The translations under genes were made by a program, and so were the position numbers. This document shows, piece after piece, positions 5,099 to 24,410 of a DNA stretch of 24,410 nt (position 1 is the stretch's first letter; every line of letters starts with the position of its first letter). This DNA comes from a virus. The notes below the pieces were generated by a model. That model worked only from the letters and a program-made list of their open reading frames with translations, searched no databases and had not been told where the DNA came from. The DNA is taken from the IMG/VR virus record IMGVR_UViG_3300006945_000006, positions 1 through 24,410 of that record; one strand, written 5' to 3'.

Positions 5099-7207
5099 TT
5101 ACGCCCCGGCGCTCTTGACCGCGGCCCGGAAGTCCTGCATCGCCACGCCGAAGTCGAAGTAGCCGCGCCACTTCATCCCCAGCGTGTCGAAGTCCGTCTC
5201 GCCGCTCTCCACGGTCGGCGTCCGCATGCCGCGCAGGTAGGCGATCTCGATGGCCGCCACGTCGGCCGGGTCGGCGAACAGATACCAGGCGGTGGCGCTG
5301 CCGCCGGCGATCCCCTGCGCGTTGAGGTACGGCGAGGCCAGCGGCTCCCACTTGCCCGCGTGCGGGTTGTTGGCCGGCTTGGGCTTGTCGGCGGTCGTCG
5401 TCTCGTTGACCCGCGTCTCGGTCATCAGCTGCTGGGCCGTGACCTTGAGCGAAGTCGGCACCAGCAGGATGGCCGGCGAGATCAGGATCGGCTTGCCGTC
5501 CTTATCGGTCTGGTCGAGGAACAGCTGCTCGGCCGTCGTCAGCGCGCTGATCTGCAGCGCCGAGCTGGCCCCGGAGAAGAAGTTCTTGTTGGCGGCGCTG
5601 AAGAAGCCGCCGGGGTTCGCCAGCAAGAGCGTGAACACCGCCGACTCGACGGCCAGGGCCGACTGCCGGCCGAGGATGCGCGGGATCTGCAGGAACGCCC
5701 CGAGGTCGTCGTTGATGATCATCTGCCGGGTCATGGCGATGATCTTGCCGTAGGTATCGACCTGGTTCGTGTACGATTCCTCGGTGAGCTGGGCGTGCTT
5801 CAGTTCGCCGTCGGGGCCGACCTTCTCGAACGTGCCCTGGCCGGTCAGGCGGTAGCGCGTCACCTGCTTGAAGTCGTTGACGTCGGCCTGGGCGGAGATG
5901 CGGGTCGCCACGCCCTCGACGGCGCTGTACGCCTCCAAGAGCGCCTTGTTGGCGACGTTGGAGAGGATGCCCGACAGGCTGATGGTGGAGAACCCGCCGG
6001 CGGCCGCGCGGAGGGCGCGGTCGGCCTCGAAGGCCGTGCGGATGGTGTCGTCGGTCATGCGGCCGGGCCGGGCGTGGCCGCCGGCGGCGTGGATGACGTG
6101 GTAGAACAGCTCGTGCAGGCCCAGGCCGCGCAGGTCGCGCGACTGGGCCGCCTCGACGGTCTGCGGGCCGTACCAGGTCAGGACCTTGGCCTCGGGCATC
6201 CGCACCGACAGGCACAGCGCCGCCTCGATGGCCGCCGCCGTGGGCGGCTTGCCGTTCGTCGTGTGGATGGCCGGGCCTTGCGGCCGGGACGCCCGCAGGA
6301 CCTCCAGCTCGGCACGGGTCGCGTCCCAGCCCTCCTCGATGGCCTTGGCCTCGATCTCGGGGTGCTTGCCGCCGCAGACCTTGCGGATCGCGGCAATCCG
6401 CTTGACCTCGGCCGCCGCTTCAGACCGGAGGCTGGAGACCGGAGACTGGAGGCTCGCAGCAGCCCTGGCCGGGGTGTGGCCTTCAACCTGGGCGCGATAC
6501 AGCGCCTGCAGGCTCTCTCGTTGCTGTTCGGTCAGCGTGTCCGCGATGAAGCCCTGCGCTTCGACCCACTGGGTAAAGTCCATGTCTTCGCCTCCGGTCT
6601 CCGGCCTCCGGTCTCCAGCCTGTTCCGCCGCGATCTGCGCCGAGGTGTTCTCGTCCGCCCCCAGCACGACGAAGCTGATCTCGCCCAGCGTGGCCCGACG
6701 GGCGATGTTGACGGGGCCGGCGAACTCCCGGCCGTTGGCCTGGGCCGTCTTGCCCTCCGGCACGAACTCGACCTGCTCGGCCCGCGCCCCGATGGACGCC
6801 TGCCAGGCGAAGCCCCGGTCGTTGAGCGCGATCACCTGCCGGGCCTTGGGCGAGTCGCCCATCACCTGGCCGGCGACCAGGAGCTGGTTGTTCATGACCG
6901 CGACGGAGTCGGTCTGCCCCAGTACGAAGTCCACGTCGCGAGTGTGGTCAAGGAGGATCGGCCGGCGCTGCCGGCCCACGTCGAGGCCGGCCAGGTCCAC
7001 GACGACCGGGTAGCGCCAGCCGGCGAGCTGCATGGCCCCGCCGGTGTAGGCGGTCATGGTGAAGCGCCGCAGCTTCTGCGCATCGCCCTCGGTGGGCGCC
7101 GCCTCCAAAGTGACCGCCTCCGCGAGCAGGTTGAGCCGGCCGTCAGGCGACGGCCGCTTCGCGCTCGCGCGGATCACCTTCGGCGTCTTCAGCGTCTTCG
7201 TCGCCAT
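5099..7207 (-). CDS. Prohead protease fused to major capsid protein (702 aa)
   Basis: Residues about 45-195 look like a U35-type prohead protease. Candidate catalytic residues are H88 (LLDHTRDV), S138 (WQASIGA) and E176 (LGEISFV). From about residue 209 a scaffold-like helical region leads to a capsid domain (about 330-702) with conserved features such as the helix MTRQMIINDDLGAF and a C-terminal DFDTLGMKWRGYFDFGVA. The start at 7207 (GGGGAG upstream) overlaps the portal gene by 65 nt. The junction contains low-complexity repeats (see the repeat entries), and an internal ATG at 6583 has GGAGG 7 nt upstream, so a separate scaffold-capsid protein could also be made. Protease-capsid fusions are known in phages. 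Self-cleavage at the junction is expected. Confidence 0.85.
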   Translation of the reverse strand: MATKTLKTPKVIRASAKRPSPDGRLNLLAEAVTLEAAPTEGDAQKLRRFTMTAYTGGAMQLAGWRYPVVVDLAGLDVGRQRRPILLDHTRDVDFVLGQTDSVAVMNNQLLVAGQVMGDSPKARQVIALNDRGFAWQASIGARAEQVEFVPEGKTAQANGREFAGPVNIARRATLGEISFVVLGADENTSAQIAAEQAGDRRPETGGEDMDFTQWVEAQGFIADTLTEQQRESLQALYRAQVEGHTPARAAASLQSPVSSLRSEAAAEVKRIAAIRKVCGGKHPEIEAKAIEEGWDATRAELEVLRASRPQGPAIHTTNGKPPTAAAIEAALCLSVRMPEAKVLTWYGPQTVEAAQSRDLRGLGLHELFYHVIHAAGGHARPGRMTDDTIRTAFEADRALRAAAGGFSTISLSGILSNVANKALLEAYSAVEGVATRISAQADVNDFKQVTRYRLTGQGTFEKVGPDGELKHAQLTEESYTNQVDTYGKIIAMTRQMIINDDLGAFLQIPRILGRQSALAVESAVFTLLLANPGGFFSAANKNFFSGASSALQISALTTAEQLFLDQTDKDGKPILISPAILLVPTSLKVTAQQLMTETRVNETTTADKPKPANNPHAGKWEPLASPYLNAQGIAGGSATAWYLFADPADVAAIEIAYLRGMRTPTVESGETDFDTLGMKWRGYFDFGVAMQDFRAAVKSAGA
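6430..6620. repeat. Inverted low-complexity repeats inside the protease-capsid junction
   Basis: A 15-bp identical inverted pair (6430-6444 against 6606-6620, unit GGCTGGAGACCGGAG) lies within two GGAG-rich tracts, 6424-6454 and 6590-6622. They code for AGDRRPETGGED and LQSPVSSLRS in the capsid fusion and surround the internal start at 6583. The tracts resemble the intercistronic repeats at 11226-11276 and 12066-12138 in style (short units of GGCYGRAGG). Confidence 0.7.
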
Positions 7208-8666
7208 CCGCGGGCTCCCCTTCTTCGTCCGGCCCCTGTTCGTCGTCCGGCGGTTCTTCGTCTGGCGGCGTCGGCGGCGCGGGCGCCGTCGTCAGCCCCA
7301 GCTCCTGCATCAGCGCCAGCTCCTTGGCCCGCTGGCGCAGGGCCTCTTCCCAGTCCCGGCCCTGCTTGGCGTACTCGTGGGCCAGCGTCGTCGTGTGGTT
7401 GCCCAGCCGTGTCGCCTGGGCGCTGGCTTCCTTGGTCGGATCGACGTGCTCGTGGCCGTCCCAGAACCACTGGTGCGGCCAGTCGGCGATCAGCCCCAGG
7501 CCGGCGGGCAGGAGACCGGGGATCAGCGCCGCCTCGTCGAACCAGGCGGCGAGGATGCGGTCCAGCACGGCGCACTCCAGGTGCGCCTGCTCGACGCGGA
7601 TCGCCTTGAAGTAGGTCTGGTGGTCCAGCCGGCCGGAGGCGTAGTTGTAGCCCGAGCTGTTGCCCGCCGCGACGTTGAACGGCATGTTGAGGCACCGCGC
7701 GATCTCGTTGAGCACCTCGCGCTTGAACTCGGCGTAAGTCGTGGCCGGCTGCTCGGCCTGCAGCTGGCTCATCTTCCAGCCGCCGGGCATGGTGACCAGC
7801 GCCCGCTGCTCCAGCTCAATGGGCTCGAACGGCTCGGCGGCGTCCGCCTCACCGCCGGCCGGGGCGTCGGTGTAAAGGATGCCGGCGAAGTCGGCGGCCG
7901 TCTCCGCGGCCGCGAGCACCGCCAGCGTAAAGCGCCGCAGCTGGGCGAACAGCGGCAGGGCCGGCGTGATGTCCGGGATGCCGCGGGCTTGGCCGGGGCG
8001 GTCGGCCCGGAACCAGTGGATGACGGAGGCGGCCGGCACCCGGTCGTAGTCGAGGAAGGTGCGCCGGCTCGTCTCGCCGGGGTGCTCTTTGAGCACGTGG
8101 TACTCGACCGGGTTGCCGGCGGCGTCAAAGACGATCCCGTCGATGGCGTTGGCGTCGAGGGCCGCCAGGTCCGGCGTGCAGACCTGGTCGGCCTCCAGCA
8201 GCCGCAGGTCGAGCTGCACGGGCGTGGGCAGCTTCGGGTTGCTGGTCAGGACGGCGAAGGCCTCGCCGTCGTGGGCGCGGGCCATCCGCAGGGTCCGGAG
8301 CTTGCCGGCCAGGCTGACCGCCTTGGCCCAGGCCGCGAACGCCTGCTCGATGCGGCGGTTGGCCTCGGCGTCGTCCGTGAGCATCTGCAGCCGCGGCCCG
8401 GTGCCGATCACGTCGTTGGCGAGGGTCAGCACGATGCCGCGGGCGTAGCTGTTGTTGGCGACCTCGTAGCGCGCCCGGTTCCGCAGCACGCGGCGGACTT
8501 CGGCGCTGTTGGCGGCGTTGGCCGACAGGCCGTCGGCGTTGGCCCAGTGCCGGCGGTTGTCGTCGTTGGTCACCGCCGCGTCGTAGCGGGCGCGGATGGC
8601 CCGCACTGCGCGGCGCGGCGCGCACCGGGAGCGCCGAGCAAACAGATTGGTCAACCAGTTCAGCAA
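7143..8666 (-). CDS. Phage portal protein, lambda-like family (507 aa)
   Basis: The portal is the dodecameric ring at one capsid vertex through which DNA is packaged. Features of the lambda-type portal family are visible: RARYDAAVTNDDNRRHWANAD near the N-terminus, NNSYARGIVLTLANDVIGTGP, HWFRADRPGQARGIP in the middle, and SSGYNYASGRLDHQTY, a strongly conserved portal motif. The last 45 residues are a Pro/Asp/Glu-rich tail. The start is a TTG at 8666 with GGAG 5 nt upstream, immediately after the stop of the small upstream gene. The 3' end overlaps the protease-capsid start by 65 nt. Confidence 0.92.
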   Translation of the reverse strand: MLNWLTNLFARRSRCAPRRAVRAIRARYDAAVTNDDNRRHWANADGLSANAANSAEVRRVLRNRARYEVANNSYARGIVLTLANDVIGTGPRLQMLTDDAEANRRIEQAFAAWAKAVSLAGKLRTLRMARAHDGEAFAVLTSNPKLPTPVQLDLRLLEADQVCTPDLAALDANAIDGIVFDAAGNPVEYHVLKEHPGETSRRTFLDYDRVPAASVIHWFRADRPGQARGIPDITPALPLFAQLRRFTLAVLAAAETAADFAGILYTDAPAGGEADAAEPFEPIELEQRALVTMPGGWKMSQLQAEQPATTYAEFKREVLNEIARCLNMPFNVAAGNSSGYNYASGRLDHQTYFKAIRVEQAHLECAVLDRILAAWFDEAALIPGLLPAGLGLIADWPHQWFWDGHEHVDPTKEASAQATRLGNHTTTLAHEYAKQGRDWEEALRQRAKELALMQELGLTTAPAPPTPPDEEPPDDEQGPDEEGEPADGDEDAEDAEGDPREREAAVA

Positions 8667-8668
8667 GC

Positions 8669-8866
8669 CTACTCCGTTCCAGGTGGGACGAGCTTGTTGA
8701 AGCGCAGGCCGCGCTTCTTCGACTTGACCGCCTCTTTCGAGGTCAGGTAGCGGTCGGCCTCGATCTGGTCGGGCAGCGGGTGCTGCTCGACGCTGCCGGC
8801 GTCGCCCGAGGCCTTAGACGGCCCCTGGGCATTCTCACGGATCTTGTCCTCAAGGTCGTCCGCCAT
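8669..8866 (-). CDS. Small conserved phage protein, first gene of the structural operon (65 aa)
   Basis: 65 residues beginning MADDLEDKIRENAQGPSKAS, with a C-terminal half rich in Lys and the segment IEADRYL followed by RGLRFNKLVPPGTE. I recall similar short proteins between terminase and portal genes in other phages, but no function. Small head-joining proteins often occupy this slot, yet the sequence does not look like lambda gpW. The ATG at 8866 has GGAGG 5 nt upstream and is preferred over longer readings that would run through the regulatory gap. Its start is 22 bp from the left copy of the 41-bp inverted repeat. Confidence 0.72.
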   Translation of the reverse strand: MADDLEDKIRENAQGPSKASGDAGSVEQHPLPDQIEADRYLTSKEAVKSKKRGLRFNKLVPPGTE

Positions 8867-8888: not shown

Positions 8889-8929
8889 TCTACTTCTAAA
8901 GGACGCAGTGGCGCGGCGAGGTGACGGAT
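8889..8929 (-). promoter_or_regulatory. Left copy of 41-bp inverted element; likely leftward promoter/operator
   Basis: Matches the reverse complement of 10294-10334 at 40 of 41 positions (mismatch at 8919). On the minus strand it reads outward to the structural operon and ends 22 bp before the ATG at 8866. The outward strand contains GTCACC, 14 nt later CGTC, then TTTAGAAGTAGA. CGTC is a common -10 core of ECF sigma promoters. The promoter reading is an inference from placement. Confidence 0.6.
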
Positions 8930-9192
8930 GAAGGCCCGGCAATTCTGGACCAACACTGCAGCTGCCGGGGCTGCTGCGAATTTTCGCTGGACCTTTGGAA
9001 GAAAACCCGAAAAAAGTCGAATTCCAGAACCTCTTGATAGGCCAAGCCTTAGAGCGTCAACCCTGTGGCCGGCCCCGCGAAAAATCGCCCTCGCTGCGAA
9101 TTTTCGCCAGTCGGGGGTGACGGGCCGGCGATGGGCCAGCAGCAACCGTAAGCTGCGGCCGCTGGCCCCGGCGAGTAGCTGAGAGGTTCGCT
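8930..9192. promoter_or_regulatory. Gene-free control region with two 15-bp direct repeats (operator candidates)
   Basis: The sequence GCTGCGAATTTTCGC occurs at 8973-8987 and 9093-9107, exactly 120 bp apart. Each holds a small dyad (GCGAA-TT-TTCGC). A related dyad GCGAAAAATCGC is at 9077-9088. The stretch is more A/T-rich than its surroundings. A frame at 8930-9182 is open, but its codons lack the local third-position bias. The region likely holds binding sites for a repressor or activator. Confidence 0.55.
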
Positions 9193-9522
9193 ATGCAGAC
9201 CCCGTCCAGCAAGTCATCCCTGTCCCCGGCGCGGCAGCGCCTCGTCGAGCTGATGCAAGACCTCAACTTCGGCCACATCGAGCGGCTGGAGATCCTCGAC
9301 AGCCAGCCGGTCTTCGACCCGCCGCCCCGCGTCGTCCGCGAGATCAAGTTCGGCGCGCGGAACGGGCCGCGTCCCGAGGCCGCCCTCCGCGACTTCGTGC
9401 TCAAGGCCCAGCTCGTGGAGTTCTTCGCCTGCCTCGACACGCTCGGCGACGGCGTCATCGAGCGTCTGGAGGTGCAACACGGACTGCCGTTCCGCGTCGC
9501 CCTTGAGGAGGCCGCGGCCTGA
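9193..9522 (+). CDS. Conserved protein of unknown function (109 aa)
   Basis: 109 residues. The ATG at 9193 has AGAGG 6 nt upstream. It has a helical start (SPARQRLVELMQDLNFGHIERLEI), a central DPPPRVVREIKFGARNGPRPE segment, and a C-terminal helix with VEFFACLDTLGDGVIERLEVQHGLPFRV. I recall similar small proteins in planctomycete genomes and phages, without a known role. No metal ligands or membrane segment are visible. It is the first rightward gene and could be an early regulator, since it lies just after the operator-like repeats and before the sigma factor gene, but this is only positional. Confidence 0.7.
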   Translation: MQTPSSKSSLSPARQRLVELMQDLNFGHIERLEILDSQPVFDPPPRVVREIKFGARNGPRPEAALRDFVLKAQLVEFFACLDTLGDGVIERLEVQHGLPFRVALEEAAA

Positions 9523-9550
9523 CAGCGGCTCTGCCTTCCGTCGTTCCGTT

Positions 9551-9567
9551 TCCTGATTCCTGATTCC
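9551..9567 (+). repeat. Short tandem repeat TCCTGAT in the gap before the sigma gene
   Basis: Two and a half copies of a 7-bp unit (TCCTGAT TCCTGAT TCC) follow the stop of the preceding gene, in a pyrimidine-rich low-complexity stretch starting near 9530. It is another example of simple-sequence spacer in this genome. Confidence 0.6.
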
Positions 9568-9603
9568 ACCACCTGACAGCAGACCGGCCACACCGTGGAG
9601 GTC

Positions 9604-9638
9604 GTTGTGGGTGACGCCGCTTCGGCATCACACACGAC
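9604..9638 (+). other. Strong hairpin upstream of the sigma factor gene
   Basis: Positions 9604-9619 pair with 9623-9638 with two mismatches and one G-U, around a 3-nt loop (CTT). No U-run follows, so it is not a classic intrinsic terminator. It may protect or attenuate the sigma factor transcript, whose ATG is at 9719. Confidence 0.5.
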
Positions 9639-9718
9639 ACCTTCCCGGACAGGGCTGGGTCCGCGCCGACGACGGCTCACCCACGCGCCCTCCTCCGCGG
9701 CCGGCGGAGGAGCTTCCC

Positions 9719-10294
9719 ATGCAAGAGCTGTTCGACGACCTCGCCATGAAACTCGTCAAGGAGCGGGTCAAGCAGATGATCGGCCGCAACGGCTTCACCC
9801 CTTCCGACCGCGAAGACCTGAAGCAGGAGTTCGCCCTCCACCTCCTGGAGTGCCTGCGCCGGCTGAAGGAGCCGCCGCAGGACCGGCAGGCCTTCCTTCG
9901 GCGTGTGATCTCCCGCTTCGCCATCTCGCTGATCCGCCGCCGCGAGGCCCAGAAGCGCGACCACCGGCGCGTCAGCTCGCTGAGCAAGCGGGTGGTCGAT
10001 TGTGACGGGCAGCGCGTCGAGATGGCCAGGACCATTCCTGAGGACCATACGCACACTCGCCTCGGCATCGCCCCGCGCAGTCGTCTGGAAGACGTGGAAC
10101 TGGGCCACGACGTGGCCACCGTCCTGGCCATGCTGCCGCCCGACTTGCGCGACCTGTGCGAGCGGCTCAAGGACCATTCCATCGCCCTTGTGGCCCGCCA
10201 GGTCGGCGTCCCCCGCACCACCCTGCACGACGCCATCAGCCGGCTGCGGCAGCACTTCGAGGACGCGGGGCTGCGGGCCTATTTGAGCCGGTGA
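9719..10294 (+). CDS. ECF-like sigma-70 family factor (191 aa)
   Basis: Sigma factors direct RNA polymerase to specific promoters. The 191-residue product begins MQELFDDLAMKL and has a region-2-like helix set (DREDLKQEFALHLLECLRR, then DRQAFLRRVISRFAISLIRR) and a C-terminal region-4-like helix-turn-helix (LPPDLRDLCERLKDHS, then VARQVGVPRTTLHDAISRLR). Length is that of the ECF group. The ATG at 9719 has GGAGGAG 7 nt upstream. An upstream in-frame start at 9605 would add 38 residues with no similarity to the family. The stop overlaps the right 41-bp inverted element, and the gene lies between the two copies. A switch from early to late transcription is the natural role for such a gene in a phage (inference). 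Confidence 0.82.
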   Translation: MQELFDDLAMKLVKERVKQMIGRNGFTPSDREDLKQEFALHLLECLRRLKEPPQDRQAFLRRVISRFAISLIRRREAQKRDHRRVSSLSKRVVDCDGQRVEMARTIPEDHTHTRLGIAPRSRLEDVELGHDVATVLAMLPPDLRDLCERLKDHSIALVARQVGVPRTTLHDAISRLRQHFEDAGLRAYLSR

Positions 10295-10334
10295 TCCGTC
10301 ACCCCGCCGCGCCACTGCGTCCTTTAGAAGTAGA
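10294..10334 (+). promoter_or_regulatory. Right copy of 41-bp inverted element; likely rightward promoter/operator
   Basis: Reverse complement of 8889-8929 with one mismatch. Reading rightward it overlaps the last base of the sigma factor stop and ends 23 bp before the ATG at 10358. The leader between has GAGGG 5 nt before the start. The same GTCACC, CGTC and TTTAGAAGTAGA marks are present at the same spacing as in the left copy. Confidence 0.6.
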
Positions 10335-10357: not shown

Positions 10358-11209
10358 ATGATGCTTGCATTTCCCTGGGCGCGCCGGAACGGTTGTTCCG
10401 GCGCGCCCGCCCTCGGCCGTCTCGACTTTCTGCTGCGCGAGCCGGCCGAAGTGTACCACGCCAAATCGAAGGAGTACCTGACCAGCCACGCCCTGGCCGA
10501 TTTCCGCGAGAACCCGCTCCTGTACCGCAAGCGACAGCTCGGCTTGGTCGTCGAGGAGGACCGCCCCGCCTTCCAGATTGGCCGCGCCGCCCACACGCTG
10601 ATCCTGGAAGGCCGCGACGCCTACCGGCGGCAGTACGCCTTCGGCGGGCCGACCAACCCGGCGACGGGCAAGCTGTTCGACAGCCGCTCCAAGGCCTACC
10701 AGGAGTGGGCCGAGCGCCAGGCCAAGCCGGTGCTCACCGACCGCCAGGCTGCCCTCGTCGAGGAGCTGGCCGGCGCGGTGCAGCGCCACCCCGTGGCCGG
10801 CGAACTCCTGGCCGAAGGGCTGCCGGAGAGTGTCCTCCGCTGCGACTACCGGGGCGTCCCCTGCCAGGCCCGGCTCGACTGGCTCAACCCCGCCAAGGGC
10901 CTCGTCGATCTCAAGACCTGCGACCACCTCAAGTACCTCGAGGCCGACGCCCGGTCGTTCGGCTACCTCCACCAGCTCGCCTTCTACCGTGCCCTGCTGG
11001 CACTGGCGGGCGGCGAGCAGGTCCCGGTCTACCTGATCGCCGTCGAGAAGCGCGAGCCATTTCGCTGCGGCGTCTGGCGGATCGACCCGAACGTCCTGGC
11101 CGTCGCGGAGCTGGATAACGAGGCCGCCCTGGAGCGCCTGGTGCGCTGCCGGCAGCTGGACCACTGGCCCACCGGCTACGAGGAGCTGCGCGTCTTCGAC
11201 CACCTGTGA
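10358..11209 (+). CDS. PD-(D/E)XK exonuclease, phage exodeoxyribonuclease VIII-like (283 aa)
   Basis: A RecB-fold exonuclease that resects double-stranded DNA ends to make single strands for annealing. It has EVYHAKSKEYLTSHALADFR near residues 31-50, H79 in GRAAHT, and the nuclease core GVPCQARLDWL (D174) then GLVDLKTC (D184, K186), with Q206 in HQLAFY as the QxxxY motif. The C-terminal REPFRCGVWR stretch is also usual in this group. GAGGG lies 5 nt before the ATG pair at 10358. It heads the recombination operon and is followed by a Sak4-like ATPase and a DUF669 protein, the common exonuclease-annealase-SSB grouping. Confidence 0.88.
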   Translation: MMLAFPWARRNGCSGAPALGRLDFLLREPAEVYHAKSKEYLTSHALADFRENPLLYRKRQLGLVVEEDRPAFQIGRAAHTLILEGRDAYRRQYAFGGPTNPATGKLFDSRSKAYQEWAERQAKPVLTDRQAALVEELAGAVQRHPVAGELLAEGLPESVLRCDYRGVPCQARLDWLNPAKGLVDLKTCDHLKYLEADARSFGYLHQLAFYRALLALAGGEQVPVYLIAVEKREPFRCGVWRIDPNVLAVAELDNEAALERLVRCRQLDHWPTGYEELRVFDHL

Positions 11210-11225
11210 GGCGGAAGGCCGAAGA

Positions 11226-11276
11226 CCGAAGGCTGAAGGAAGCCAAAACGGTCTTCGGTTGTCCTTCAGCCTTCGG
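11226..11276 (+). repeat. Intercistronic hairpin repeat, copy A
   Basis: A perfect 15-bp stem (11226-11240 with 11262-11276, arm CCGAAGGCTGAAGGA) and a 21-nt loop lie between the exonuclease stop and the next start. The whole 11210-11296 stretch is built from GGCYGAAGG-like units and resembles copy B at 12066-12138. It lacks a U-run, so it is more likely an mRNA processing or stability element than a terminator. Confidence 0.75.
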
Positions 11277-11308
11277 CCTACAGCCTTCAGCCTCCTGAGG
11301 AACCGACC

Positions 11309-12052
11309 ATGAGTCTCCTGGCACAAGTCCAGAGCGGCAAGCGGCCGGCCCCACGGCGCGTGCTGCTCTACGGCACCCACGGCATCGGCAAATCGACCTT
11401 CGGCGCCGGCAGCGACCGGCCCGTGTTCGTCCAGACCGAGGACGGCCTGGGCGAGATCGACTGCGACAAGTTCCCCCTGGCCCTGTCGTACCCGGACGCG
11501 CTAAAGGCCCTGGAAGCCCTCTACACCGAGCAGCACCCCTACCGCACGGTCGTCGTCGATTCGCTCGACTGGCTGGAGCGGCTGATCTGGGCCGAGGTCT
11601 GCCGGCAGCGCTCCGTCGAGAACATCGAGGACATCGGCTACGGCAAGGGCTACGTCTTCGCCCTGACGCCCTGGCGCGAGTTCCTGACCGGCCTGGACGC
11701 CCTGCGCAACGACCGCGGCATGACGGTCGTGCTCATCGCCCACGCCCGCATCGAGCGCTTCGAGAACCCCGAGACGGACAGCTACGACCGCTACGTGCCC
11801 CGGCTGCACAAGCTGGCCTCGCAGGTCATCCAGGAGTGGTGCGACGAGGTCCTGTTCGCCACCTACAAGGTCTACACCAAGCAGACCGATGAGGGCTTCA
11901 GCCGCAAGAAGACCAAGGGCATCGGCACCGGCGAGCGCGTCCTGTACACCAGCGAGCGCCCCTCGCACGTCGCCAAGAACCGCCTGGGCCTGCCCGACGA
12001 ATTGCCGCTCGACTGGCACGCTTACGCCTCGTTCTTCCACCAACCCAACTGA
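11309..12052 (+). CDS. Sak4-like RecA-family ATPase / phage nucleotide-binding protein (247 aa)
   Basis: Sak4 proteins are RecA-fold ATPases that anneal single strands in phage recombination. Walker A is GTHGIGKST (residues 22-30) and Walker B is VVVDSLDWLE (81-90). LIAHARIERFE follows in the middle, a sensor-like segment, and the C-terminal part includes KNRLGLPDELPLDW, a usual ending in this family. GAGGAA sits 7 nt before the ATG. Neighbours (exonuclease before, DUF669 after) agree with the known grouping in which Sak4 works with an SSB-like partner. Confidence 0.87.
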   Translation: MSLLAQVQSGKRPAPRRVLLYGTHGIGKSTFGAGSDRPVFVQTEDGLGEIDCDKFPLALSYPDALKALEALYTEQHPYRTVVVDSLDWLERLIWAEVCRQRSVENIEDIGYGKGYVFALTPWREFLTGLDALRNDRGMTVVLIAHARIERFENPETDSYDRYVPRLHKLASQVIQEWCDEVLFATYKVYTKQTDEGFSRKKTKGIGTGERVLYTSERPSHVAKNRLGLPDELPLDWHAYASFFHQPN

Positions 12053-12065
12053 GAGCGGAGGCCGA

Positions 12066-12138
12066 AGGCTGGAGGCTGAAGGAAGGCAAAGACCGTCTTT
12101 TGGTTTTCCTCCGGCCTACAGCCTTCAGCCTCCAGCCT
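12066..12138 (+). repeat. Intercistronic hairpin repeat, copy B
   Basis: A perfect 17-bp stem (12066-12082 with 12122-12138, arm AGGCTGGAGGCTGAAGG) closes a 39-nt loop. It shares the middle segment with copy A (GGCTGAAGGAA, then GGCAAA/GCCAAAA, a GTCTT stretch and CGGCCTACAGCCTTCAGCCTCC). Its right edge (GAAGGAG) supplies the ribosome site of the DUF669 gene. Confidence 0.75.
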
Positions 12139-12153
12139 GAAGGAGAGTGACCC

Positions 12154-23944: not shown

Positions 23945-24154
23945 ATGCGACCGTTCGATAACTCGGACCTTACCCCGCAAGACCGCTTCCGTGAGATCGC
24001 CGCTGTGCTCGCCGTCGGCGTGCTGCGCCTGCGCGCACGGGCCGCGACCTTTGCCGATCCGGACGAGCATTCCGCCCCGGAAAATCCCGAGAAAACCGGC
24101 GACAGTTGCCTTGAGCTTTCCGCGAAAACCGTGCTCAGTGTCCACACGGGTTAA
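23945..24154 (+). CDS. Small conserved unknown protein (69 aa)
   Basis: 69 residues: MRPFDNSDLTPQDRFREIAAVLAVGVLRLRAR, a Pro/Glu-rich middle, and a C-terminal ELSAKTVLSVHTG. I recall short proteins with this RFREIAAVLAxGVLRLR helix and LSVHTG end downstream of phage terminases in planctomycetes, annotated hypothetical. AGGAG is 7 nt before the ATG. No domain is recognised. Confidence 0.6.
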   Translation: MRPFDNSDLTPQDRFREIAAVLAVGVLRLRARAATFADPDEHSAPENPEKTGDSCLELSAKTVLSVHTG

Positions 24155-24189
24155 CCATTTCCGAGACACCGAGAAAGGAGAACAACGAC

Positions 24190-24410
24190 GTGGACCTGAA
24201 CATTGGCAAAGAACTAGCCGCACTCCAGCGGATGACCGTCAAAGAGCTACGAAACCGGTACGCCGAAGTCTTCGGCGAACCGACCAACGCCAACAACCGG
24301 GCCTGGCTCGTGAAGCGCCTCGCCTGGCGGCTGCAGGCCCTGGCCGAGGGCGACCTGTCTGAACGCGCCCGCCGGCGGGCCGCCGAGTTGGCCAGCGACG
24401 CCGACCTGCG
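24190..24410 (+). CDS. DUF2924 family protein, N-terminal part (cut by window edge)
   Basis: Starts at GTG 24190 with AGGAG 9 nt upstream and stays open to the edge (73 codons). The sequence LAALQRMTVKELRNRYAEVFGEPTNANN then AWLVKRLAWRLQALAEG is typical of DUF2924, a family common in phages and prophages, often near recombinase-type genes. Function unknown. The next genes, possibly a site-specific recombinase, would be beyond the window. Confidence 0.82.
   Translation, partial: MDLNIGKELAALQRMTVKELRNRYAEVFGEPTNANNRAWLVKRLAWRLQALAEGDLSERARRRAAELASDADL

Follow-up and report, generated by a model that had tools for sequence, protein, structure and literature searches.

A phage-encoded ECF-type sigma factor predicted to serve twin promoters before the structural and replication operons of a Planctomycetota prophage group

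Introduction

Phages phiEco32 and 7-11, which infect E. coli and Salmonella, encode sigma subunits (gp36 and gp47, respectively) with dedicated promoters 5' of their middle/late operons, of which six and eight, respectively, have been mapped by experiment (PMC8948821). The promoter differs with the sigma factor, being tAATGTAtA in phiEco32 and GTAAtg-16-aCTA in 7-11 (PMC8948821). The principle of a phage sigma factor with promoters of its own is therefore already known. The locus described here lies in an IMG/VR record of 24,410 bases that was analysed in its entirety (the window), and it resembles these two phages in carrying its own sigma gene with predicted promoters of its own before phage operons, in this case on sequence evidence. 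Unlike in phiEco32 and 7-11, the sigma factor of the window probably serves both the structural and the replication operon, one of the promoters starts where the sigma gene stops, and a structured RNA lies 5' of the gene in many members of the family. At the level of sequence comparison, no homology to gp36 or gp47 was detected in the phage collection (tblastn, E≤1e-3).

The product of this gene shares with bacterial ECF sigma factors (M. tuberculosis SigL, SigE and SigH) the possession of sigma2 and sigma4 only, predicted two-box promoters, fold matches, and profile matches that for the window protein lie close to the cut-offs. It differs from them in being phage-encoded, in the −35 box of its family, which is CGWCA and not the usual ECF sequence GGAAC, and in that no anti-sigma factor was recognized. 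The RNA preceding it is comparable to riboswitches and attenuators, in that two of its helices exclude each other and a hairpin covers the Shine–Dalgarno sequence, but it has no match in Rfam and precedes a phage sigma gene. No homologue of the sigma factor was found by tblastn (E≤1e-3) among 50,697 GenBank phage records, the leader RNA had no match in GenBank phages, and the literature searched yielded nothing relevant on sigma factors of Planctomycetota or Phycisphaerae prophages. Judged by the sources searched, the leader RNA is new, as are the sigma family with its host phylum, the coupling of the two operons and the set of co-variation data.

Results and Discussion

The locus is organized around two divergent operons, namely a leftward structural operon in the order g8669, portal and capsid, and a rightward operon encoding an exonuclease VIII-like protein, a Sak4-like ATPase, helicase, primase, methyltransferase and terminase (Table 1). 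The interval between them contains a control region, orf109, a gap of ~200 nt that encodes a conserved RNA, and the sigma gene. The original prediction had listed a control region, one gene and an ECF-like sigma factor in this interval, all of which are present, and had overlooked the leader RNA. Elsewhere in the window, a protein of the structural/tail gene cluster (1781–2818) contains a GDSGGG trypsin-like motif, and GC-rich inverted repeats of the GGAGGCYGAAGGC type occur at gene ends or between genes (6417–6622, 11208–11294 and 12050–12139), where they are also direct repeats of one another.

Table 1. Features of the locus, with the evidence or sequence elements on which each is based
Feature	Position	Strand	Basis
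Portal protein	7143..8666	-	Pfam Phage_portal_2, E 3.7e-62
g8669 (65 aa), gene 1 of left operon	8669..8866	-	tblastn matches in relatives; no function assigned
Left promoter element (inverted copy)	8889..8929	-	−35 8928-8922, −10 8907-8896
Control region	8976..9107	.	GCGAATTTTCGC at 8976 and 9096; GCGAAAAATCGC at 9077
orf109, small conserved protein 5' of leader RNA	9193..9522	+	Many relatives have a homologue ~500 nt 5' of sigma
Structured leader RNA of sigma	9575..9718	+	Covariation, covariance-model matches, folding
Leader hairpin P1	9597-9644	+	Covariation
Leader alternative pairing	9607-9614 with 9677-9684	+	Covariation
Leader hairpin over Shine–Dalgarno-like GGAGGAG (9706-9712)	9690-9712	+	Covariation, folding
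ECF-like sigma factor (191 aa)	9719..10294	+	Pfam Sigma70_r2, PHROG 1740, AlphaFold2, Foldseek
Right promoter element	10294..10334	+	−35 TCCGTCA 10295-10301, 14-nt spacer, −10 TGCGTCCTTTAG 10316-10327, AAGTAGA to 10334
Exonuclease VIII-like, gene 1 of right operon	10358..11209	+	PHROG 412, Pfam DUF3799
Sak4-like AAA ATPase	11309..12052	+	PHROG 124, Pfam AAA_24

The inverted element at the centre of the original prediction was recovered at the coordinates claimed for it, with arms of 41 nt that are identical at 40 positions when inverted (98 % complementary) and have 1364 nt between them. This is the longest inverted repeat in the window, and its ungapped arm match scored 38, whereas the highest score among 10 shuffled controls was 13. 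The distances given for it were likewise correct, with 22 nt separating the left arm from the ATG at 8866 (minus strand) and 23 nt separating the right arm from the ATG at 10358, so that the left element points at the g8669–portal–structural operon and the right element at the exonuclease/replication operon. The right arm starts on the base that completes the sigma stop codon. The predicted promoter, GTCACC and CGTC 14 nt apart, is present as written, but its box limits were shifted by alignment with relatives. GTCACC was rejected as the −35 box and the box was moved to CCGTCA, because the CC that follows GTCA varies (GTCAAG in L004 and GTCAGT in L013). The aligned boxes are a −35 TCCGTCA and a −10 TGCGTCCTTTAG separated by 14 nt, and scanning the window for sites with more than 14 of the 19 box bases returned the two predicted promoters and no third.

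Close relatives of the sigma factor (68–95 % identity) were found in six viral records and in one MAG contig labelled Phycisphaerae. Each contig that spans both arms has the pair, always in the same orientation and with a spacing of 1361–1365 nt, and the spacer between the boxes is kept within this clade (9–13 of 14 bases). The boxes read TCCGTCA-N14-TGCGTCCTTTAG in the window, L003 and L006, and TCCGTCA-N14-AGCGGCTTTTAG in L004, L008 and L011. The two copies are alike within a phage and different between phages, which on these sequences is a pattern of joint evolution.

The assignment of the sigma factor itself was based upon profiles and a structural model. The window protein matched Sigma70_r2 at 24.0 bits (cut-off 24) and fell slightly under the cut-off for TIGR02937 (39.8 vs 42.9 bits), a profile that was matched by all 36 of the 36 family members at E≤1e-3 (best 2.3e-16). 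The AlphaFold2 model (pLDDT 78, pTM 0.42) contains the helices of sigma2 (residues 7–87) and sigma4 (120–182) and no sigma3 domain, which as modelled is the composition of an ECF sigma factor, and the top Foldseek matches were the ECF sigma factors SigL, SigE, SigH and RpoE (E 2.5e-4). Whole-chain TM-scores were low because the arrangement of the domains in the model is uncertain.

A profile search (E≤1e-12) identified sigma homologues in 60 of 397 genomes of the class, many of them adjoining the same replication genes as in the window; we infer the class and phylum of these genomes from relative L006. At most loci a bipartite motif, (C)CGWCA-N14-NGSRTADGTAAC, overlaps the sigma stop codon or lies just 3' of it, and at 37 of 48 loci it scored higher than 99 % of 180-nt stretches drawn at random from these loci (the 99 % null). 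As the motif matrix was trained on these 48 loci, an independent check matters, and this was provided by 14 loci that were reached via the RNA model and had played no part in building the matrix, one of which is cut by a contig end. Of the remaining 13, 12 scored above the 95 % null (5.2) and seven above the 99 % null (10.4). The spacing of 14 nt holds throughout the family, and the two boxes at fixed spacing that characterize an ECF promoter are thereby found at the level of sequence. No clear motif at this spacing was seen in L055, L056 and L060. The −10 box of the window clade differs greatly from the consensus of the family, with a family-matrix score of 0.9; it was placed by its spacing and position, by the second copy, and through L013, an intermediate that scores 13.0.

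Co-variation between the sigma factor and its boxes was quantified using Mantel and partial tests on sequence distances for 33 sigma–promoter pairs, with 5000 permutations. Sigma region 2 was correlated with the −10 box (r=0.55, 0/5000) and not with the −35 box (r=0.00), while region 4 was correlated with the −35 box (r=0.19, 88/5000). Partial tests preserved the matched pairs (region 2 with −10, 0.54, 0/5000; region 4 with −35, 0.20, 58/5000), and the crossed pairs gave −0.05 (region 4 with −10) and −0.08 (region 2 with −35). The signal between region 4 and the −35 box is the weaker half of this evidence. Such domain-matched co-variation is the pattern expected were the sigma factor to contact both boxes; common descent by itself would not be expected to produce a pairing by domain.

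The second copy was sought in 20 phages with a homologue of g8669, which served to locate it, by scoring the best match to each phage's own boxes within 260 nt upstream. Sixteen of these carried a site 62–147 nt before g8669–portal that shares 16–19 of 19 bases with the sigma-proximal site of the same phage, a level (16 bases) that shuffled upstream sequences never attained in 2400 trials. Summed over 12 lineages, the own-match score was 186, which none of 200,000 permutations of phages equalled. The copy went undetected in G051, G083, G151 and G351, also by de novo search. Few long inverted pairs had been found in distant prophages when these were searched without gaps, because the boxes alone are conserved and a box matrix is required. 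The original prediction had proposed looking in related phages for the element beside the sigma gene and upstream of the portal operon, and in both positions its boxes proved to be conserved in most of the phages examined. In nine of the 16 phages (G241, G197, G103, G266, G021, G367, G391, G074 and G024) the structural operon lies 13–18 kb downstream and is co-directional with sigma; the copy therefore belongs to the operon, and the inverted geometry of the window arises because its operons diverge. Further copies lie 5' of a small 'LTPEQRLDEVA..' protein in six phages (G367, G067, G058, G265, G042 and G054), 5' of a primase-like gene in G058, and 5' of other genes. The window itself encodes a small 'LTPQDRFREIA' protein followed by a DUF2924-like gene (23945–24410); proteins of this kind sit after a third sigma promoter in several phages, and no such site is detectable in the window.

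It could be argued that the copies are operators of a phage repressor or activator and not promoters of the phage sigma factor, since near-identical sites near gene starts would fit such a role, as would the spacer kept within the window clade. Against this, the two-box architecture is invariant while the spacer varies in other phages, the sites are non-palindromic, one adjoins the 3' end of the sigma gene, and the co-variation is matched to sigma2 and sigma4, leaving operators an improbable explanation. We consider it slightly less probable still that the promoters are real but served by a host ECF sigma factor, with the phage sigma having another role; Planctomycetota hosts encode many ECF sigma factors, yet the promoters track the phage sigma domain by domain across different host genomes. 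That 8930–10293 is an invertible cassette between recombination sites, the alternative offered in the original prediction, is very improbable despite the long near-perfect inverted repeats and a serine-recombinase-like gene probably just past the contig end, as all clade records have a single orientation, the nine prophages above carry direct and distant copies with different spacers, and the preservation of the boxes without the spacer beyond the clade (3–9 of 14 spacer bases) is expected for a promoter and not for a recombination site.

By comparison, the view that the phage sigma factor serves a pair of promoters of its own is well supported by positional conservation, identity within phages and domain-matched co-variation, and we place its probability at roughly 86 %. 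The sites, their positions, their conservation and their co-variation with sigma can be read in the sequences; from these we infer that sigma binds at the sites and that transcription starts there. With the host core RNA polymerase, the sigma factor would recognize CGWCA-14 nt-NGSRTADGTAAC in the family and TCCGTCA-N14-TGCGTCCTTTAG in the window. The right copy, starting from the sigma stop codon, would fire rightward into the exonuclease, replication and terminase genes, and the inverted left copy leftward into the portal and structural genes, so that synthesis of sigma would turn on both halves of the genome together.

Synthesis of sigma may in turn depend on the RNA that precedes it. The gap before the gene (9523–9718) is 95 % conserved in the window clade, and the leader portion is recognizable in distant phages. 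For P1 and the Shine–Dalgarno hairpin, 82.6 % of cells are paired and 11 pairs show two-sided changes, with slid controls all far lower. A second helix, formed by the 5' strand of P1 and a segment just before the Shine–Dalgarno hairpin, is 97.8 % paired, and C-G, U-A and A-U all occur at one of its pairs; because both need the same strand, P1 and this helix are mutually exclusive. A covarying, conserved structure 5' of the gene to be controlled, as in riboswitches and attenuators, is thus found here. In folding, forcing the best alternative helix lowered Shine–Dalgarno pairing in 15 of 23 leaders, with a forced helix that differs from the covarying one in some leaders and costs mostly 4–10 kcal/mol (up to 24). 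The Shine–Dalgarno sequence is often freed because the 5' strand of P1 pairs also with the arm that hides it. These models suggest that the leader could mask or expose the ribosome-binding site of sigma, the direction of control being a matter of interpretation, and that it may control the amount of sigma made.

A covariance model trained on 15 leaders found matches, some of them weak, in 27 of 397 genomes of the class, and matches in 12 of 392 genomes of the phylum. At all 14 inspected loci outside the training set the leader is flanked by orf109 and by sigma, and 12 of these come from genomes missed by the sigma search. Among the weak matches, that of G034 adjoins orf109 and a sigma gene, that of G045 follows orf109 at a contig end, and that of G183 has no sigma gene in view nearby. 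A subgroup of phages (L061, L062, L065, L078 and L080) has another, unrelated-looking leader 200–260 nt before sigma, with a conserved CATAACC(C)GG segment that resembles a tRNA anticodon arm. The orf109 product gave a DUF2292 hint in few members, at most weak, and although the gene adjoins sigma, no anti-sigma match was found for it. The GCGAATTTTCGC and GCGAAAAATCGC palindromes of the control region are candidate repressor operators, and in some other phages this position is occupied by repeated or palindromic sites that differ from these.

The phage is probably temperate, as a serine-recombinase-like gene lies downstream in relative G003. There, a homologue of the last complete small gene of the window is followed by a DUF2924-like gene and then by the serine-recombinase-like gene (531 aa; 28163–30493 overall), both calls being read from the translation. 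The remark in the original prediction that no recombinase is seen is true within the window, but is probably an effect of where the contig ends.

Beyond recognition of the two sites by sigma, every step of the mechanism is proposed. In a lysogen, a repressor on the palindromes of the control region could keep the region silent; upon derepression, host polymerase would transcribe orf109, the leader and sigma from the region upstream of orf109. The leader RNA would then gate translation of sigma, and once this was permitted the replication and structural operons would start. Slightly short of even odds, in our estimation, is a broader proposal, that the operators, orf109, a bistable leader and an ECF-type sigma factor with promoters for both the replication and the structural operon form a decision module of Planctomycetota prophages across the phylum, in which the RNA is a new class that sets the lytic switch. 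One strand of this RNA would pair either inside the hairpin to which it belongs or with a segment beside the other hairpin, the one masking the ribosome-binding site of sigma.

A separate observation concerns the portal gene, which is interrupted in G004 (L130/L131) by an insert of ~15.7 kb (~8844–24560 of the record), the two portal pieces overlapping by 9 nt (gene positions 916–924). Portal similarity also ends at position 924 in L008 (near 1269) and at position 995 in L006 (near 431). Around 250 nt into each insert is a promoter-like site directed into it, GCGGACA-N14-GGCATATGTAAC in L006 and L008 and GGCGTACCTAAC in L003. The insert may be a satellite element that exploits the sigma factor of another phage.

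Conclusion

In summary, a regulatory logic is predicted here from sequence for a large group of Planctomycetota prophages, of which no description was found in the literature searched. The leader RNA offers a testable control point. The dozens of diverged sigma–promoter pairs, with their domain-matched co-variation, would help to derive a recognition code for ECF-type sigma factors and would supply orthogonal sigma–promoter pairs.
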